A stretch of 31,413 nt of DNA, from IMG/VR virus record IMGVR_UViG_3300036846_001187, positions 1 to 31,413 of that record; one strand, given 5' to 3'. The notes beneath the pieces are model-generated. The model did no database searches, was not told the DNA's origin, and saw only the letters and a program-made list of their open reading frames with translations. Positions 2,902 to 31,248 of this stretch are shown here, piece after piece; the first letter of the stretch is position 1; each line of letters opens with the position of its first letter. This stretch comes from a virus. The translations under genes were made by a program, and so were the position numbers.

Positions 2902-2952
2902 CGGAATGCGGCGCGGCAAAAGGCCACATCGACCTTGGCCGCGCGGCCTAAC

Positions 2953-2981
2953 ATACTGCGATTGCTGCTGGTTTTGTGCAG
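2953..2981 (-). repeat. 29-bp inverted repeat, copy A
   Basis: On the minus strand this 29-mer is identical to 13292-13320 on the plus strand. It occupies most of the 93-bp gap before the VWA gene and ends at that gene's ribosome site. The gap also has a 12-bp palindrome GGCCGCGCGGCC at 2937-2948. Confidence 0.85.
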
Positions 2982-2994
2982 GAAGGATACTTCG

Positions 2995-4215
2995 ATGAAC
3001 CTCGATGAAGCCATTGCCATCGCCGACCGCCGCATCCGTCGCGCCCGGTCCCACATGCTCACCACCCACGACGCCAACGGGAAATGCACCTTCGCCTTCT
3101 GGGCGACGGCGGCCCTTCACCTACAGCTCAAGCCCGTTCCCCACCTCGGCCAGATGGCTGGCGGCAACATCGGCACCGACGGCACCTACATCATCTACGA
3201 CCCCCTCGTTTATGCCGACAAGACGCAGGTCAGCGACTCCCAACTCATCGCCACCATTGCCCACGAAACCTCGCACTGCACCAAGGGCGACGGCTGGCGG
3301 CGCGGCTCCCGCGATCCCCTCGGTTGGAACATCGCTTGTGACCAACGGATCGACCCTGAGTTGATCTTCCATGGGTTCGAGCCTCCCGACCACGGTTCGC
3401 CGGAAGCCAACGACATCTTCCATAACTCTCAAAACAAGGGCAAGGCCGCCGAGCAACTCTACGAGGAGAACAAGACCAACCGGCCCCAACTGCCCCCCTG
3501 CGGCCTCGACGGCGACATCCACGACCCGACCGATCCCGCCGCTAACGCGGCGACGGCTTCGGAGCGCAAAGCCATCCTCGAAGAACTGGAGCGGAAGTGG
3601 ACGATCATTGCCCGTCAGGCCGCCGAGATTGCCAAGTCACAGGGCCATCTGCCCGGCTCCTACGAGCACCTCGTCCGCCCGGTCAAGCCCCGCCTCAACC
3701 CGTGGGACCTGATCCGCTACTACGTCAGCATGTGCCGCAAGGACGACTACAGCTGGTCCCGGCCCAACCGCCGCTCCATACACAGCAACCTCATCCTGCC
3801 CTCTCTCCACAGCCAGGGCATCGGTGAGATCGTCATCGGCATCGACACCAGCGGCAGCTGCCGGGACCTCGTTCCGCGCTTCCTCGGCTTCCTCGCCCTC
3901 ATCCTCTCCGAGGTGAAGCCGGAGCGCACGATCTTCATCCAGTGCGACACCCGCGTTCACAACGTCACCGAATACACCGCCGATGACGAGCTGCCCCAGG
4001 AGGTTCCCGTCCGTGGTTACGGCGGCACCTCGATGCGGCCCATCTGGCAAGCGGTCCACGACGGCAACTACCAGCCCCGCTGCGCCATCGTCCTCTCCGA
4101 CATGGCGATGACCAAGGCCGACTTCGGCGACCCCCAGCCCTTCCCGGTCCTCTGGCTCAGCGGCGAGCGCGGCGCAGAGGCCCCCTGGGGCGAAAACGTC
4201 CAGCTTGGGGACTAA
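2995..4215 (+). CDS. Metallopeptidase-like / VWA-domain protein (DUF2201-type)
   Basis: A 406-residue protein with two recognisable parts. The N-terminal part has a zinc-peptidase signature HETSH (H90, E91, H94), as in the DUF2201 N-terminal metallopeptidase-like domain. The C-terminal part is a VWA-like domain: IGIDTSGS with the MIDAS residues D284, S286 and S288, then GGTSMRPIWQAV (T345) and VLSDM (D369). This architecture is the usual partner of MoxR ATPases. The start at 2995 is chosen over an upstream in-frame codon because AGGAAGG lies just before it and MNLDEAIAIADRRI is a typical start for the family. Whether the peptidase site is active cannot be told from sequence. Partner and target are unknown. 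Confidence 0.85.
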   Translation: MNLDEAIAIADRRIRRARSHMLTTHDANGKCTFAFWATAALHLQLKPVPHLGQMAGGNIGTDGTYIIYDPLVYADKTQVSDSQLIATIAHETSHCTKGDGWRRGSRDPLGWNIACDQRIDPELIFHGFEPPDHGSPEANDIFHNSQNKGKAAEQLYEENKTNRPQLPPCGLDGDIHDPTDPAANAATASERKAILEELERKWTIIARQAAEIAKSQGHLPGSYEHLVRPVKPRLNPWDLIRYYVSMCRKDDYSWSRPNRRSIHSNLILPSLHSQGIGEIVIGIDTSGSCRDLVPRFLGFLALILSEVKPERTIFIQCDTRVHNVTEYTADDELPQEVPVRGYGGTSMRPIWQAVHDGNYQPRCAIVLSDMAMTKADFGDPQPFPVLWLSGERGAEAPWGENVQLGD

Positions 4216-7887: not shown

Positions 7888-8082
7888 CTATCGTGTGCGC
7901 GTCACCTGCATAAACCCGCCGGTGAAACGTACAAGGAACCGTATGTCCTTGTAATAGTAGCGGGTGCTTTCTATTGCGGCTTCCGCTCTGTCGAACAACT
8001 GTGGATCATACACCGTCCTCGTCTCCTCAACCTCCATCTTGCTGAACCCCCAGGGGCGTCTCCTCTTCTTCTCCCCTGTCAT
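7888..8082 (-). CDS. Small phage protein, paralog of the 8079-8327 product
   Basis: A 64-residue protein. RRRPWGFSKMEVEETRTVYD, then the helix FDRAEAAIESTRYYYKDIRF, then LVRFTGGFMQVTRTR lines up in order with the upstream gene: PF/GF-x-x-M-x-V-x-E-T, a short helix, F-x-hydrophobic, G-x-x-V-x-R. These short proteins with a conserved 'PW/PF..M.VG/E' start and 'RV.R' end are widespread in phages, often as several copies, and are unassigned. ATG overlaps the upstream stop (ATGA). Confidence 0.6.
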   Translation of the reverse strand: MTGEKKRRRPWGFSKMEVEETRTVYDPQLFDRAEAAIESTRYYYKDIRFLVRFTGGFMQVTRTR

Positions 8083-8327
8083 GCGACACGCTGAACCCGC
8101 AGCCCGGCTTCACACTTGCCCAGTGTGAACCGCTTGCCGCTCTTGCGGTGGATGTTAGATGCCGAGTTGTAAGCTGACTGGAAGCGCTTGGGGTTCTCGA
8201 TATAGAGCGTCTCCCCTACTACCATCTGCTCGAAGGGCCAGACTGGGCGAGGTCCCTTCCTCACTGGCAACGTAATCTCTATCGGCTCCATGCCGAGAGC
8301 GAAGCCGTTCACGATACGATTGTCCAT
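8079..8327 (-). CDS. Small phage protein (PF..M.VGET / RVQRV type)
   Basis: An 82-residue protein, first of a four-gene minus-strand operon. It has PVWPFEQMVVGETLYIENPK, a helix (FQSAYNSASNIHRKSGKRF) and the terminal GLRVQRVA. This matches a very common short phage family of unknown function in which the mid-helix and final R-V-x-R are conserved. The ATG is behind CAAGGAG. It is transcribed away from the palindrome at 8340-8624, which should contain its promoter. Confidence 0.65.
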   Translation of the reverse strand: MDNRIVNGFALGMEPIEITLPVRKGPRPVWPFEQMVVGETLYIENPKRFQSAYNSASNIHRKSGKRFTLGKCEAGLRVQRVA

Positions 8328-8359
8328 TCCACTTGCTCCTTGAAGTTTCTCAAACGCCC

Positions 8360-8389
8360 ATTAGAGTTTCTTTGGATCACCGTAATCAA
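8360..8389 (-). promoter_or_regulatory. Candidate promoter for the minus-strand small-gene operon
   Basis: On the minus strand, TTGATT (8389-8384), an 18-bp spacer and TCTAAT (8365-8360) point toward the 8327 gene. The mirrored arm carries CTGATT (8575-8580), 18 bp and TCTAAT (8599-8604) pointing the other way, so the palindrome encodes two outward-facing promoter-like sites. Confidence 0.4.
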
Positions 8390-8448
8390 GTATTTCGACC
8401 CCCTTTATACTTTAAAACTGAAGACATCGAAGAGAGGAGAGTTCTCTG

Positions 8449-8497
8449 TGTATATGTATGTGAATTATTATGTAATAACATTTCACATACATATACA
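8449..8497. repeat. Perfect 16-bp stem-loop at the palindrome centre
   Basis: TGTATATGTATGTGAA (8449-8464) is exactly complementary to 8482-8497. The 17-nt loop itself contains TTATTA/TAATAA (8465-8470/8473-8478). It could extrude as a cruciform or act as an unwinding element. Confidence 0.85.
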
Positions 8498-8610
8498 GAT
8501 TACTTCACAATTTCTCGATCATGTCAAGCGCGATCTGCACGCTCAGTTTTAAAGTATAAAGGGGGTCCAAACACCTGATTACGGTGATCCAAAGAACTTC
8601 TAATCGACGT

Positions 8611-8639
8611 TTGACAATCTTCAAAGTCGAACCTAGAAT
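8611..8639 (+). promoter_or_regulatory. Sigma70-type promoter
   Basis: TTGACA (8611-8616), 17-bp spacer, TAGAAT (8634-8639). It lies 29 bp before the start of the 8668 gene and overlaps the outer edge of the palindrome's right arm. CCTA/TAGG (8632-8635/8641-8644) brackets the -10 and could be an operator. Confidence 0.7.
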
Positions 8640-8667: not shown

Positions 8668-9027
8668 ATGACTAACAAGCGACACTGGAGCGACTTCCCA
8701 GTGGTCATGATCGAGCTAGTCCAGAAGTTCGAGGAGGCTCCCTCGGGACGGCTGGTCCTCAACGGCCTCTCCAAGTCGGATGCCTACGCCATGAGGAACG
8801 AGTTCCATCGCTTCCGCCGGGCCATCATCGACGCGGTCCACAAAGGGGAACAGGACCTGACCCTCAACGAACTCTACGCATCCACGCGGGACATGGGATT
8901 GTCTCTCCGTCCCATCGGTACCTCTGACCTCTACCAGCTGGCGTATACCAAGCACATAGCTATCAGGTACTTCGACAAGTGGGAACCTCCCGAGCCACTT
9001 GTTGTGATAGAGGACGAGGATGTTTGA
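8668..9027 (+). CDS. Hypothetical protein, 119 aa
   Basis: A 119-residue soluble protein with a strong ribosome site (TAGGAG) and its own consensus-like promoter. It has LVLNGLSKSDAYAMRNEFHR and FRRAIIDAVHKGEQ, then a region ending with the acidic tail VVIEDEDV. The 'NGLSKSDAYAMRNEFHRFRRAI' part reads like a helix-turn-helix or small regulatory helix bundle. With the promoter placement this would suit an early regulator, but no family is recognised. Confidence 0.65.
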   Translation: MTNKRHWSDFPVVMIELVQKFEEAPSGRLVLNGLSKSDAYAMRNEFHRFRRAIIDAVHKGEQDLTLNELYASTRDMGLSLRPIGTSDLYQLAYTKHIAIRYFDKWEPPEPLVVIEDEDV

Positions 9028-26928: not shown

Positions 26929-29187
26929 TTACCTGCCAACCTGCGGGGCCAGACCGAGAGGCATCCCGCCATAGTCTCCGCCGGCCGGGGCATCACCCGG
27001 CAGATAGGATGAGGCCGGAGTCGCCACCGGACCCGAAATCGTCTCTGTCTCCTCCGGCCACACCGCATCGAAGTCGTCCTCGGTCAAGCCAAAGCGGGCA
27101 GCGTACTTGGCGAAGTAAGCCTTGGCCGTCTCCCTGCTTACTCCCCCGCCCCTATCCTCGACGATCTTGTCAGCCAGTTCCTGGGCATCGCGGGGTTCCG
27201 CCTGCTGGGCTGCCGCCGGCCCCGTCGGCGTCTGCTCGCCGACAACATACTGCCGGCCCCGGTTCTTTGGCTTGGTCGCCATCTCATACTGCTTGATGAG
27301 CTGTGCGTTCCTGGCGACATCACTCCCCGGCTTGACCAGCGCGTTGTAGAGCTTGATCTGGTCGTCGGTGTAACCCTTGGCTTTCAAGGCCGCCTCGTCC
27401 AGTGCCCCGTCGGGCGCGGCTCTCCCCAGCGCCACATCCCTCCTAAAGCTCTTCGGCCAGTTGTCTGCGTCGAGGTCCTCGCGGGCGGCATCAATTTGGT
27501 CGTTCATCTCCTGCTGCGGCGTCGTCAGCCCACCCTGGACCGTGTGGCTAAAGGTCGCCGCCTGCCGCTGCAACTCCAGTTTCTCGGCATCGTTAAGATC
27601 GCGGCCGCCCACCTCGGCCTGCTTATTCCGGTACAGGTTCTTGTAGTAGACCTTGGCGTTGCCGGTCATCCCATAGGAGCCGTCCTTCTTGTCCTGGGCA
27701 TCCTCGACAAAACCATCCATGTCGCGCTGATACTTCAGCCGCAACTCCTCCCGCCGCAGCTGGGTCAGGTCGTTCTTCTCGATCCTCTCGTAGACCTCCT
27801 TCCACTGGTTGCTCTGGGCCAGCCTGAGGTCCTGGTCCATCTGCCATAGCCGGAAGTAATCCGTCAGCTTGTGCTGCTTCTCTGCATCCGTCAGCGTCAT
27901 ATCCCGCACGATGTTCTGGATGCCCTGGTTCTGCATCTCGAAGGCCGTGTGGGCCATGTTGGTCTGCGTCTTCCACAGGTCGACGTTGTTGGCGAACTGG
28001 GCATCATTGCCCTCCTTCAACCCCTGTAACGCACCTGACAAGGCGTTGATCGCACCCAGCCCCGGTCTTCGCGTGGCGAAGCCTCCCATCGCCACCAGGA
28101 ACGTGAGAAGGGGCGTGATCCCGCTGGCGGCCTCCATCGGCGTCCGCGATGTGGGCATCTTGGTGCTCAACTGTTGATACTGCTTGGCTAGCCGGTCGGA
28201 CTCGTCCATCGCCTCGTGCAGCCGCCGGTGCATCTCCTCTGACGCTGGATCGCTGGCCCGGATGATCTTCTCAAGCTCCCCCATCCTCACCCGGCCCGCA
28301 TCAATAGCTTCCTGATTGGTCCGCTGCATGTTGGCGAAGGCCTCGTCGGACCGGGCCTGACCAGCACTCCCCTGCCCCAACGTCGGCCAGATGCCGTGCA
28401 GGACATTGTCGATGCTGGCATATTGGCCGGCCTTAAAGTCCGCCAACAAATCGCGGCCCGTGTGCGCCTTATAGGCTTGGGCGGCCATCATCAGGTTGCC
28501 CTTGACCTGGTTCTCCGGCGTCATCCGTGTGTCGCCGCCCAGAAACTTCGGGGCAATCGTCTGTGTCCAAGTGTCGTACTCGTCCTGGAAGTAACCGTAG
28601 GCCGAGGTCGGCCTGCCGTCCGGCCCGACATCCCCAGGCCAGCCCAGCGCCTTGGGATGATTAGTATTGGCCCCCTCCCACGGCTTCCCATTATACAGTT
28701 CGGTGAAAGCACCAGTGCCCTGGCTTTTGTGCTCACCCTTGGTAATGTAGTTGGCGAGCGAGGCCCAGTCGGCGGCCGTCTCCTTGGGGAAGCCGGACCT
28801 CACCGCCAGATCGGGGGTGACCGCTCCAGGCCAGCCGCCTGTCAGCGGCTGCTGCCCCCCACTGCTCGGGTAGAGTGACGAGGCCGGCGGCTGAACCCCA
28901 GGCGCGTCGGTCGAGAAGGTGGCCGGCGTCTGCCCATGGGGTCGTAGGTTGCTGACATCGTCCTTGTTGGCCGGTGTCTTGCCCTCGGGGTCGGGCCGCT
29001 CAACTTCTTTGCCCTCCGCTTCTGGAGGGGGAACCGGCTTGACCGGGACGATTGGCTTATAGTCCGCAAGCTCCTTCGGCGGCTTGACAGCCAGCAGTCC
29101 CGACAACAGCCCACTCGGCTTGACCTTGGGCGTATCGCCATAGATGCCCTCGATGCCGCCCAGCGGGTCGGCAAAGAACCCGGTCAT
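26929..29187 (-). CDS. Internal virion protein with lysozyme-like (transglycosylase) domain
   Basis: A 752-residue protein. Residues about 138-275 read as a lysozyme-superfamily domain: ADWASLANYITKGEHKSQGT with the catalytic Glu likely E152, NHPKALGWPGDVGPDGRPTS, AYGYFQDEYDTWTQTIAPKF, and MTPENQVKGNLMMAAQAYKA, matching 'I...EG... HP....S.AaG.yQf...TW....' of phage muramidases. This part would open peptidoglycan locally during DNA entry. Long charged helices follow (TDYFRLWQMDQDLRLAQSNQ, YERIEKNDLTQLRREELRLK), as in ejection proteins. The first 130 residues are Pro-rich and flexible. The gene lies between two other large virion genes, four bases from each. Confidence 0.75.
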   Translation of the reverse strand: MTGFFADPLGGIEGIYGDTPKVKPSGLLSGLLAVKPPKELADYKPIVPVKPVPPPEAEGKEVERPDPEGKTPANKDDVSNLRPHGQTPATFSTDAPGVQPPASSLYPSSGGQQPLTGGWPGAVTPDLAVRSGFPKETAADWASLANYITKGEHKSQGTGAFTELYNGKPWEGANTNHPKALGWPGDVGPDGRPTSAYGYFQDEYDTWTQTIAPKFLGGDTRMTPENQVKGNLMMAAQAYKAHTGRDLLADFKAGQYASIDNVLHGIWPTLGQGSAGQARSDEAFANMQRTNQEAIDAGRVRMGELEKIIRASDPASEEMHRRLHEAMDESDRLAKQYQQLSTKMPTSRTPMEAASGITPLLTFLVAMGGFATRRPGLGAINALSGALQGLKEGNDAQFANNVDLWKTQTNMAHTAFEMQNQGIQNIVRDMTLTDAEKQHKLTDYFRLWQMDQDLRLAQSNQWKEVYERIEKNDLTQLRREELRLKYQRDMDGFVEDAQDKKDGSYGMTGNAKVYYKNLYRNKQAEVGGRDLNDAEKLELQRQAATFSHTVQGGLTTPQQEMNDQIDAAREDLDADNWPKSFRRDVALGRAAPDGALDEAALKAKGYTDDQIKLYNALVKPGSDVARNAQLIKQYEMATKPKNRGRQYVVGEQTPTGPAAAQQAEPRDAQELADKIVEDRGGGVSRETAKAYFAKYAARFGLTEDDFDAVWPEETETISGPVATPASSYLPGDAPAGGDYGGMPLGLAPQVGR

Positions 29188-29190
29188 GAC

Positions 29191-31248
29191 CTAGGCCGTC
29201 ACATTGACCGTGGAGGGGCTGATCTGCGACAGCGCCAGGTTCTTGCTTAGGGCCGCCAAGGCCGTGTTCAACTCGTTGTCCGCCTCAAGCTGCAACTTGG
29301 CTACACCCAGGTCGGCCTGGCTGATCGTCTGCGCAGCATTGGTCACGGCGTTGGCTGCATTGGTGACGCCGCCGGCCGCCCCTGTCTCTGTACTCACTGC
29401 CTGGTTAAGGCCCTGGATACCATTCAAGATGGAGGTTACGCCGGCCAAGGCATTGCCACTCGCGACACCAGACCCCTGCGCCTCCTGGATACCCTGGCTC
29501 ACCAGGCTGGAGAGGATGCCGGGTATCTGGGCGATAATATTCCCGCTGGCCGCCGCCACGTCCTCGCCCTCGGTCGAGGACCCCGCCAGTCCCAGGTTGG
29601 CGTAGCGATTGGTCACCGCCCCCCGGGCCGTACTAAGCGCTGACCGGATCGAGTCGGCGATACCAGGTGGCAACTGGCCGGTCGTCTCAGCCGACAACAG
29701 TGGTGTGGCGGCGGCACCCTCTCGCGCCGACAGATCGCTCTGCTGCTGGATAATCGGCGACGCACTCTGGATCGCCGTCGCCAGCCCCGTTTGCGCGGCT
29801 GGTATAAGTTGCTGGGCCGCCGTCTGGAAGCTCTGGTTGGCAGGACCCTGTGCCGCAAAGGCATTGGCCCCGGCTTGCGTTGGCGCGTTGGTCGCCTGCC
29901 CCGGCACCGTCGGCTTGTTGAGGAAGTTCATCCCCAGCCCGCCAACTAGGCCAGCCAGACTCAGCAGCCCCTGGTTCTCGTTGGCCCACGCCTTGAGGTT
30001 GCCGAACAACCCCTTGTCCGCACCTGCCTCGTCGGCTGTCACGCTGCTAGACAGGTCCGTCCCGCTTACAGTCCCCTTGGTTGCCCCCGGGAAGAACTCC
30101 CCACCACTTGTGCCTGCGGCACTCGTGGTCGGCGCTGTGGTAGTTGTCGGCGTGGTCGTAGGTGGTGTGATGGCCGACGTATTGACAGGGCCAGTTGTGG
30201 TTGCTGTGGCGGGTGGGGTCGTCGGCGACGGCGCAGCGGTCGTGCCTGCGGTCGACCCTGACACATCGGTGGTGGTGTCCAGCCCCAGACCGCTGGGGGT
30301 CTGAAGCTCGATGGGAGCGCCACCCGGCGCAGGGGGTGCCGCTGCTGCTCCACCCGTCACCAACGAGCTAGGTGCCGTCGTCGGCCCCCCTCCAGGCAGT
30401 GGAGGCACGCTCCCCACTCCCATCGGCCCGCCTGTCACCGGGTCGAGTTTCCCGCCAACATTGGGAGCCTCGCTCAATGAGGGGAAGTCGGCCCTCGGCC
30501 CAGCCGCCGGCAGACTTGGTGTCGAGACAGATGGCAACCCACCCGCCTCCGCCGTCCCGATGGGGTTGATCGCGCTAAGCAATCCACTTGGTGACGGAAG
30601 GGGGATGCCAAAGAGGCTCGGCCCCGCCCCACCAGCAGCCGCAGCTTCAGGGGCAGCCGCCGCGACATTGACATCCGGCAAGGCGATCCCTGTCGCCGTC
30701 GCATCGGTCGCCGGCAGGTAACCAAACGCCTGGAGGAACTGTGCCGCATCAGCCGGGGTAGCAAAGCTGCCCGAAGCGAACGCCTCGCCTATCAGTTGCG
30801 GCGCGAACTGCTCCCCCACCGCCGCTGTCTCGGCCCCCAGCTGACCGGACCCCAGCACTTCCCCTAGCGCCTGTGTCTGACCCAGCTCCCCGGCCCCGCC
30901 TGGCTCCTGCAACAGGGTGGCGGCCCTAGCCAGGTTAGGCTGGATTTGATTGGCGATCTGCTCCGGGCTGTAGGTAAAGCTGGCATCGGGTCCCAAGCCG
31001 GCCGCGCCGCCTATGCCACCTTCGGCACCACCGAGGGCACCAATGGCGCTCGGTATGGCCCCGCCAAGCGCCAGTGCACCCGCCCCTACGCCGCCGAGGA
31101 TGTCTCCCAGTCCGACAGTCGCTCCGAGGACCTCGGGTGCCACCGCGCTGACGGCCACCTCCGGCAGGACAACCTCCGGCAGGATGGCGGCCGAAAAGAT
31201 GTGGCACCGAAAATGTGCGTCGGGATCAGTCCACGGAGTGCTTTTCAT
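29191..31248 (-). CDS. Low-complexity internal/structural virion protein
   Basis: A 685-residue protein rich in Ala, Gly, Thr and Pro. A Gly/Ala-rich N-terminal part (LGDILGGVGAGALALGGAIP) could be membrane-active. A Thr/Pro linker follows in the middle (encoded at about 30100-30280: TPPTTTPTTTTAPTTSAAGT). The C-terminal third is helical (NENQGLLSLAGLVGGLGMNF; NALAGVTSILNGIQGLNQAV) and resembles phage internal or injected proteins encoded beside lysozyme-type ejection proteins. No enzyme motif. The ATG at 31248 lacks a clear ribosome site and overlaps the upstream gene by 23 bp, so the start is uncertain. Confidence 0.6.
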   Translation of the reverse strand: MKSTPWTDPDAHFRCHIFSAAILPEVVLPEVAVSAVAPEVLGATVGLGDILGGVGAGALALGGAIPSAIGALGGAEGGIGGAAGLGPDASFTYSPEQIANQIQPNLARAATLLQEPGGAGELGQTQALGEVLGSGQLGAETAAVGEQFAPQLIGEAFASGSFATPADAAQFLQAFGYLPATDATATGIALPDVNVAAAAPEAAAAGGAGPSLFGIPLPSPSGLLSAINPIGTAEAGGLPSVSTPSLPAAGPRADFPSLSEAPNVGGKLDPVTGGPMGVGSVPPLPGGGPTTAPSSLVTGGAAAAPPAPGGAPIELQTPSGLGLDTTTDVSGSTAGTTAAPSPTTPPATATTTGPVNTSAITPPTTTPTTTTAPTTSAAGTSGGEFFPGATKGTVSGTDLSSSVTADEAGADKGLFGNLKAWANENQGLLSLAGLVGGLGMNFLNKPTVPGQATNAPTQAGANAFAAQGPANQSFQTAAQQLIPAAQTGLATAIQSASPIIQQQSDLSAREGAAATPLLSAETTGQLPPGIADSIRSALSTARGAVTNRYANLGLAGSSTEGEDVAAASGNIIAQIPGILSSLVSQGIQEAQGSGVASGNALAGVTSILNGIQGLNQAVSTETGAAGGVTNAANAVTNAAQTISQADLGVAKLQLEADNELNTALAALSKNLALSQISPSTVNVTA

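Follow-up and report, generated by a model that had tools for sequence, protein, structure and literature searches.

Architecture of the palindrome

The 31,413-bp phage contig analyzed here (IMG/VR record IMGVR_UViG_3300036846_001187; the window, abbreviated W in comparisons) displays a near-palindrome spanning 285 bp between two divergent genes, 8082-8327(-) and 8668-9027(+). A preliminary description offered three candidates: (i) a cruciform-forming replication origin, (ii) a symmetrical genetic switch, and (iii) a captured inverted-repeat element.

The element comprises a left arm of 82 bp (8340..8421) and a right arm of 82 bp (8543..8624), complementary at 73 of 82 positions, a measurement that bears out the 72 of 81 identities counted earlier by hand. 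Between them lies a central AT-rich palindrome (8449..8497), in which the perfect 16-bp inverted repeat already reported, where TGTATATGTATGTGAA pairs with TTCACATACATATACA, extends to 23-nt arms (8449-8471 and 8475-8497; 91% match, 3-nt gap). The contrast in composition noted from the outset is also found, the element having a GC content of 37% and the contig one of 62%. The self-palindrome score of the window reaches 298, whereas dinucleotide shuffles score 49 ± 10 (z = 25), and the palindrome is the top inverted repeat of the contig at 169 bits, the runner-up scoring 42; folded as single-stranded DNA with DNA parameters, the region yields −82 kcal/mol. The view that protein coding is not what is conserved holds as well, the open reading frames across the element changing their ends, by inspection, between W and its nearest relative. 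The possibility that the repeat represents one arm of a gene was rejected.

Conservation of complementarity in close relatives

The close relatives L003/L012, L004/L011, and L010 were recovered by scanning with both flanking genes and with the polymerase, and the same nested palindrome occupies the same place in W, L003, L004, and L010. Within a genome the two arms are 89% (W), 74% (L003), and 81% (L004) identical to each other, whereas between these three genomes the left arms are 48-64% and the right arms 49-68% identical; despite this divergence, the proteins of the flanking genes in L003 and L004 are 73-91% identical. In the four-phage alignment, 47 of 105 pairs have changed on both sides, a number not reached in any of 500 shuffles (mean 21.9). 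When the partner is slid by 1-3 columns, both-side changes drop to 6-15 and paired cells fall from 82% to 31-45%, the pairing structure having been taken from W, which biases the paired-cell percentage upward and does not explain the both-side changes. The left and right arms thus covary, and the element is a DNA-level cis element conserved in structure. The exact arm sequences found no match among viral contigs, as a consequence of the rapid divergence of the arms, and a DNA search of annotated phages returned no match to the element. A close relative represented by L062-L064 (IMGVR_UViG_3300036846_001227) shows a 97-bp end overlap in its contig, so that this assembly of about 57 kb is probably circular and complete.

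The compensatory changes occur in runs, a pattern also expected from mutational homogenization, in which template switching copies one arm onto the other with no selection for structure, a process documented to both repair and create hairpins (PMC8794818). Template switching may be what maintains the arm match; as the entire explanation it appears improbable, leaving unaccounted for a single element, at a fixed place by an early promoter, that usually coincides with the melting minimum in distant phages. The element offers material to separate selection for structure from homogenization by template switching.

Occurrence across distant phages

The distant set comprises 40 viral loci retrieved with an exonuclease alignment, many of which display an equally long palindrome of unrelated sequence. 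Altogether, a palindrome of ~160-410 bp with an AT-rich center is found in three close and more than a dozen distant relatives, with palindrome scores of z = 8-25 across 16 loci. It adjoins replication genes and occurs once per genome. In the full contigs, the palindrome is located between a leftward terminase/endonuclease-I block and a rightward block of exonuclease, polymerase, and primase; in the clade of the window, it separates a small leftward operon from the replication operon. Full-length reading was extended to ten more family contigs in which no clear repeat had appeared within 10 kb: (i) G020, G021, G022, and G025 carry the palindrome farther off, that of G022 barely above background; (ii) G018 and G024 contain palindromes at background level, that of G018 at the expected place; and (iii) G017, G019, G023, and G026 disclosed none over the full contig. 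The cultured phages Mel-JY34, a Microcystis phage with Microcystis elabens as its recorded host, and ABTNL-3 present short versions only. Hence in 5 of 27 contigs (G017, G019, G023, G026, and ABTNL-3) the element is short or not clearly present, in a set of relatives biased in both directions by the choice of contigs. A scan of genome contigs with the exonuclease found no relative, and hence no clue to the host.

The source metagenomes of the relatives differ, and one record comes from GenBank (MW202489). Long palindromes can be produced by assembly, the concern raised alongside the earlier proposals; independent contigs from different metagenomes and MW202489 carry the palindrome, which excludes an error of this kind. 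The proposal of a captured element is left unsupported because the palindrome is syntenic across distant phages. Contigs of many metagenomes, and a GenBank record too, have it at one and the same position, and both arms have acquired substitutions; these independent relatives can be considered to refute both an artefact of assembly and the recent capture of an inverted-repeat element.

The arms of some relatives are further organized. Iteron-like 6-mer repeats are present in both arms of G009, G010, G011, and G015 (p ≤ 0.025 per arm), and repeats phased at ~10-13 bp occur in the arms of some relatives; the arms of the window are devoid of iterons, and no universal iteron motif was found, the repeats being confined to some relatives. 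The arms of L046 (5111-5414), L053 (2824-3122), and L039 (1896-2158) are composed of short direct repeats with a phase of ~10-12 bp (GTCT.., GCCTA.., and TGGC.., respectively), inverted across the AT-rich center. Such arms resemble the lambda ori and iteron origins in placing repeat arrays beside an AT-rich segment; in lambda, however, direct iterons lie inside gene O, whereas here arm-to-arm complementarity defines the element and the window has no iterons. The phased short repeats of G009, G010, G011, and G015 suit either an origin or a promoter switch/operator.

The telRL site of phage N15 displays nested inverted repeats about a central palindrome, a layout similar to that described here. 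A comparable role, as a site of hairpin-telomere resolution, concatemer resolution, or packaging, would be in keeping with the nested palindrome and with the endonuclease-I homologues nearby in many relatives. On the other hand, a search of six contigs, some of which are fragments, with the protelomerase model PF16684 gave no match. In no contig does the element stand at an end, and the unique genes to its left differ from those to its right; several contigs also show the end overlaps of circular assemblies. We regard this role as very unlikely.

Promoters at the arm ends

The promoter TTGACA-N17-TAGAAT (8610..8638, plus strand) is present as first described. Its −35 box falls within the outermost part of the right arm, and relatives conserve the promoter: TTGACA-N17 also occurs in L003, L004, L010, and L015. 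In most loci, TTGACA-N16..18 followed by a −10-like box starts near the outer end of the right arm. Of 20 loci, 13 have TTGAC between −20 and +25 bp from the right arm end, where 0.93 would be expected, and 4 have it at the left arm end, the arm ends being approximate for the last four of the 20 loci. Boxes of the −35 type are located at both arm ends in G005, G007, G012, and G013.

The leftward promoter of the window seems to lie inside the spacer, where the minus strand carries the conserved CGCTTGACATG..AGTAAT. A strand-specific stretch at 8499..8530 (minus strand), CGCTTGACATGATCGAGAAATTGTGAAGTAAT, is identical or nearly so in W, L003, and L004 and reads TTGACT in L010; it is likely a leftward promoter, with TTGACA as −35 and a putative weak −10, AGTAAT, at N17. 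The mirrored TTGATT/CTGATT-N18-TCTAAT boxes of the preliminary description are found as written, and again in L003, but are absent from L004 and L010; conservation of the TTGATT/TCTAAT boxes does not extend past the nearest relative.

This arrangement lends itself to the main rival explanation, a supercoil-sensitive promoter switch or dual operator that, in the form of a cruciform or of paired arrays of protein sites, sets the activity of the early promoter(s) and takes no part in the start of replication. The placement of −35 boxes at the ends of the arms (at both ends in the four contigs named above) and the ~10-13 bp phased repeats in some arms are consistent with it, and supercoiling influences divergent promoters (PMC4469952). 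However, operators keep their sequence or short dyads, whereas here arms of 40-90 bp remain complementary with little sequence kept, and the neighborhood of the element disclosed no regulator gene. A pure switch is conceivable, and we consider it rather unlikely. Promoter hairpins of the N4 type are likewise extruded by supercoiling beside early promoters; they measure 5-7 bp and are recognized by a virion RNA polymerase. In contrast, the promoters here look σ70-like, and no virion RNA polymerase was seen among the ORFs tested.

Pairing at the level of DNA or RNA

If an RNA strand were under selection, G·U wobbles on that strand should exceed A·C mismatches. Pooled over 16 loci, G·T (82) and A·C (87) mismatches are balanced (p = 0.76), indicating that no single RNA strand is preserved, although single contigs are skewed in opposite directions (G·T:A·C of 11:2 in G010 and 11:1 in G014; 1:9 in G013 and 3:12 in G012). 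In addition, the outward orientation of the promoters implies a rightward transcript without the arms and a leftward transcript with at most the left arm. The absence of an RNA-strand bias, together with the promoter at the outer tip of the right arm, argues that pairing is kept as DNA, outside that transcript.

A transcribed palindrome working as a long RNA hairpin could draw on the strong fold predicted with DNA parameters, on the skews of G010, G014, G013, and G012, and on the Rfam matches. Against these stand the pooled mismatch counts, the outward-facing conserved promoters, neither of which would give a transcript with both arms, and the low Rfam scores, so that we attach little probability to it. 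Rfam returned no family at gathering score, only sub-threshold models of plant microRNAs. These matches, at 8371-8593, reach E ~1e-14 and remain far below the gathering cutoffs, such models responding to any long hairpin; they are a trap for automatic annotation.

Covariation, usually a mark of RNA structure, is thus met here in DNA next to, and not inside, an early transcript. It spans many phages with unrelated arm sequences, which makes a cruciform function in phages testable.

Melting, strand composition, and a possible origin of replication

Nearest-neighbor energies were computed for all 50-bp windows of each contig. In the window, the least stable 50 bp start at 8451, inside the central palindrome, and in 14 of 17 contigs the palindrome center ranks first for instability among all such windows, with ranks 2, 6, and 30 in the others. 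The top palindrome coincides with the stability minimum in 18 of 27 family contigs and in none of seven control phages (T7, lambda, YuA, LUZ24, PaP2, LS06, and Kuura), a comparison that is partly circular, many contigs having been chosen for showing an inverted repeat. The cumulative GC skew, suggested earlier as a check, shows no switch at 8.5 kb, and in the clade of the window no switch occurs at the element where the genes on both sides share direction; in phages, such a switch is a weak test, confounded by gene strand, and a supporting sign more than a strictly defining one.

The rightward genes constitute a replication module, including a DUF3987 primase, an SF1 helicase, Sak4, an exonuclease, and PolA; no known initiator gene was recognized, and no conserved initiator-binding motif was identified.

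The earlier proposals are borne out in part. That of a cruciform origin or symmetrical switch is reinforced: complementarity is conserved, and the element lies beside an early promoter at the easiest-melting site; the GC skew lends no support, and the outward boxes are not kept in relatives beyond the nearest. Because a single-copy, structure-conserved, and easily opened palindrome adjoins the promoter of the replication operon, we favor an origin of replication that is prone to cruciform formation and coupled to early promoters, with a confidence just short of even; a palindrome linked to a promoter might just as well have a regulatory role. Outward transcription from the early promoter(s) would cause negative supercoiling to accumulate in the palindrome, the AT-rich center would then open and a cruciform or paired hairpins be extruded, and phage replication proteins from the adjoining operon could load at the opened palindrome. 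A tailed-phage lineage would accordingly start replication at a giant palindrome under selection for its secondary structure and not for its sequence, the cruciform being extruded by outward early transcription and origin firing tied to the activity of the early promoter, a fuller scenario that we put forward more tentatively still.

The oriL of herpes simplex virus (HSV) has an AT-rich center, is flanked by two divergently oriented replication genes, and is a near-perfect palindrome with conserved UL9 sites. In comparison, the phage arms are imperfect, longer overall, and without a motif common to the lineages, and no evolutionary relation is implied. What the two share is a large palindrome, a candidate origin in the phages and, in oriL, a sequence of about 136 bp that acts as replication origin (PMC3726392). 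Plasmid origins of the pT181 type form a supercoil-dependent cruciform stimulated by the initiator (PMC9180970; Noirot 1990, as cited there); they rely on a rolling-circle Rep and a short inverted repeat, whereas no Rep nickase emerged from the present analysis. Palindromes at origins and at promoters are both known kinds. A literature search found no report of a palindrome conserved by complementarity throughout a phage lineage with little sequence conservation, which is not proof of absence. In uncultured phages of this lineage, the palindrome can serve to locate the candidate origin and the early promoter independently of sequence.

Flanking genes and other genes of the window

The left gene (8082..8327, minus strand; 82 aa; RBS AGGAGC) has homologues in L003, L004, L010, and L015 and no match in PHROGs or Pfam. 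The second gene of the leftward operon (7888..8082, minus strand; 64 aa) resembles it by inspection; the operon thus opens (7888-8327, minus strand) with two mutually similar small proteins that display an F..M.V.ET motif and a basic C-terminus, a family with more members in L015. The right gene (8668..9027, plus strand; 119 aa) heads the rightward replication operon; its family was not recognized, and its predicted fold, with a confident core, found no fold match at E ≤ 0.001. L015 contains two divergent copies of this family (1044-1376 and 3437-3952), one on each side of the palindrome.

Elsewhere in the window, two large minus-strand genes beside a tail-fiber gene (26929-29187 and 29191-31248; 752 and 685 aa) matched no PHROGs family. 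The gene at 2935-4215 is annotated as an HNH endonuclease by PHROGs and as a DUF2201 metallopeptidase domain with a VWA-like domain by Pfam; it and the AAA ATPase encoded at 363-1397 resemble a pair of the MoxR/VWA type.
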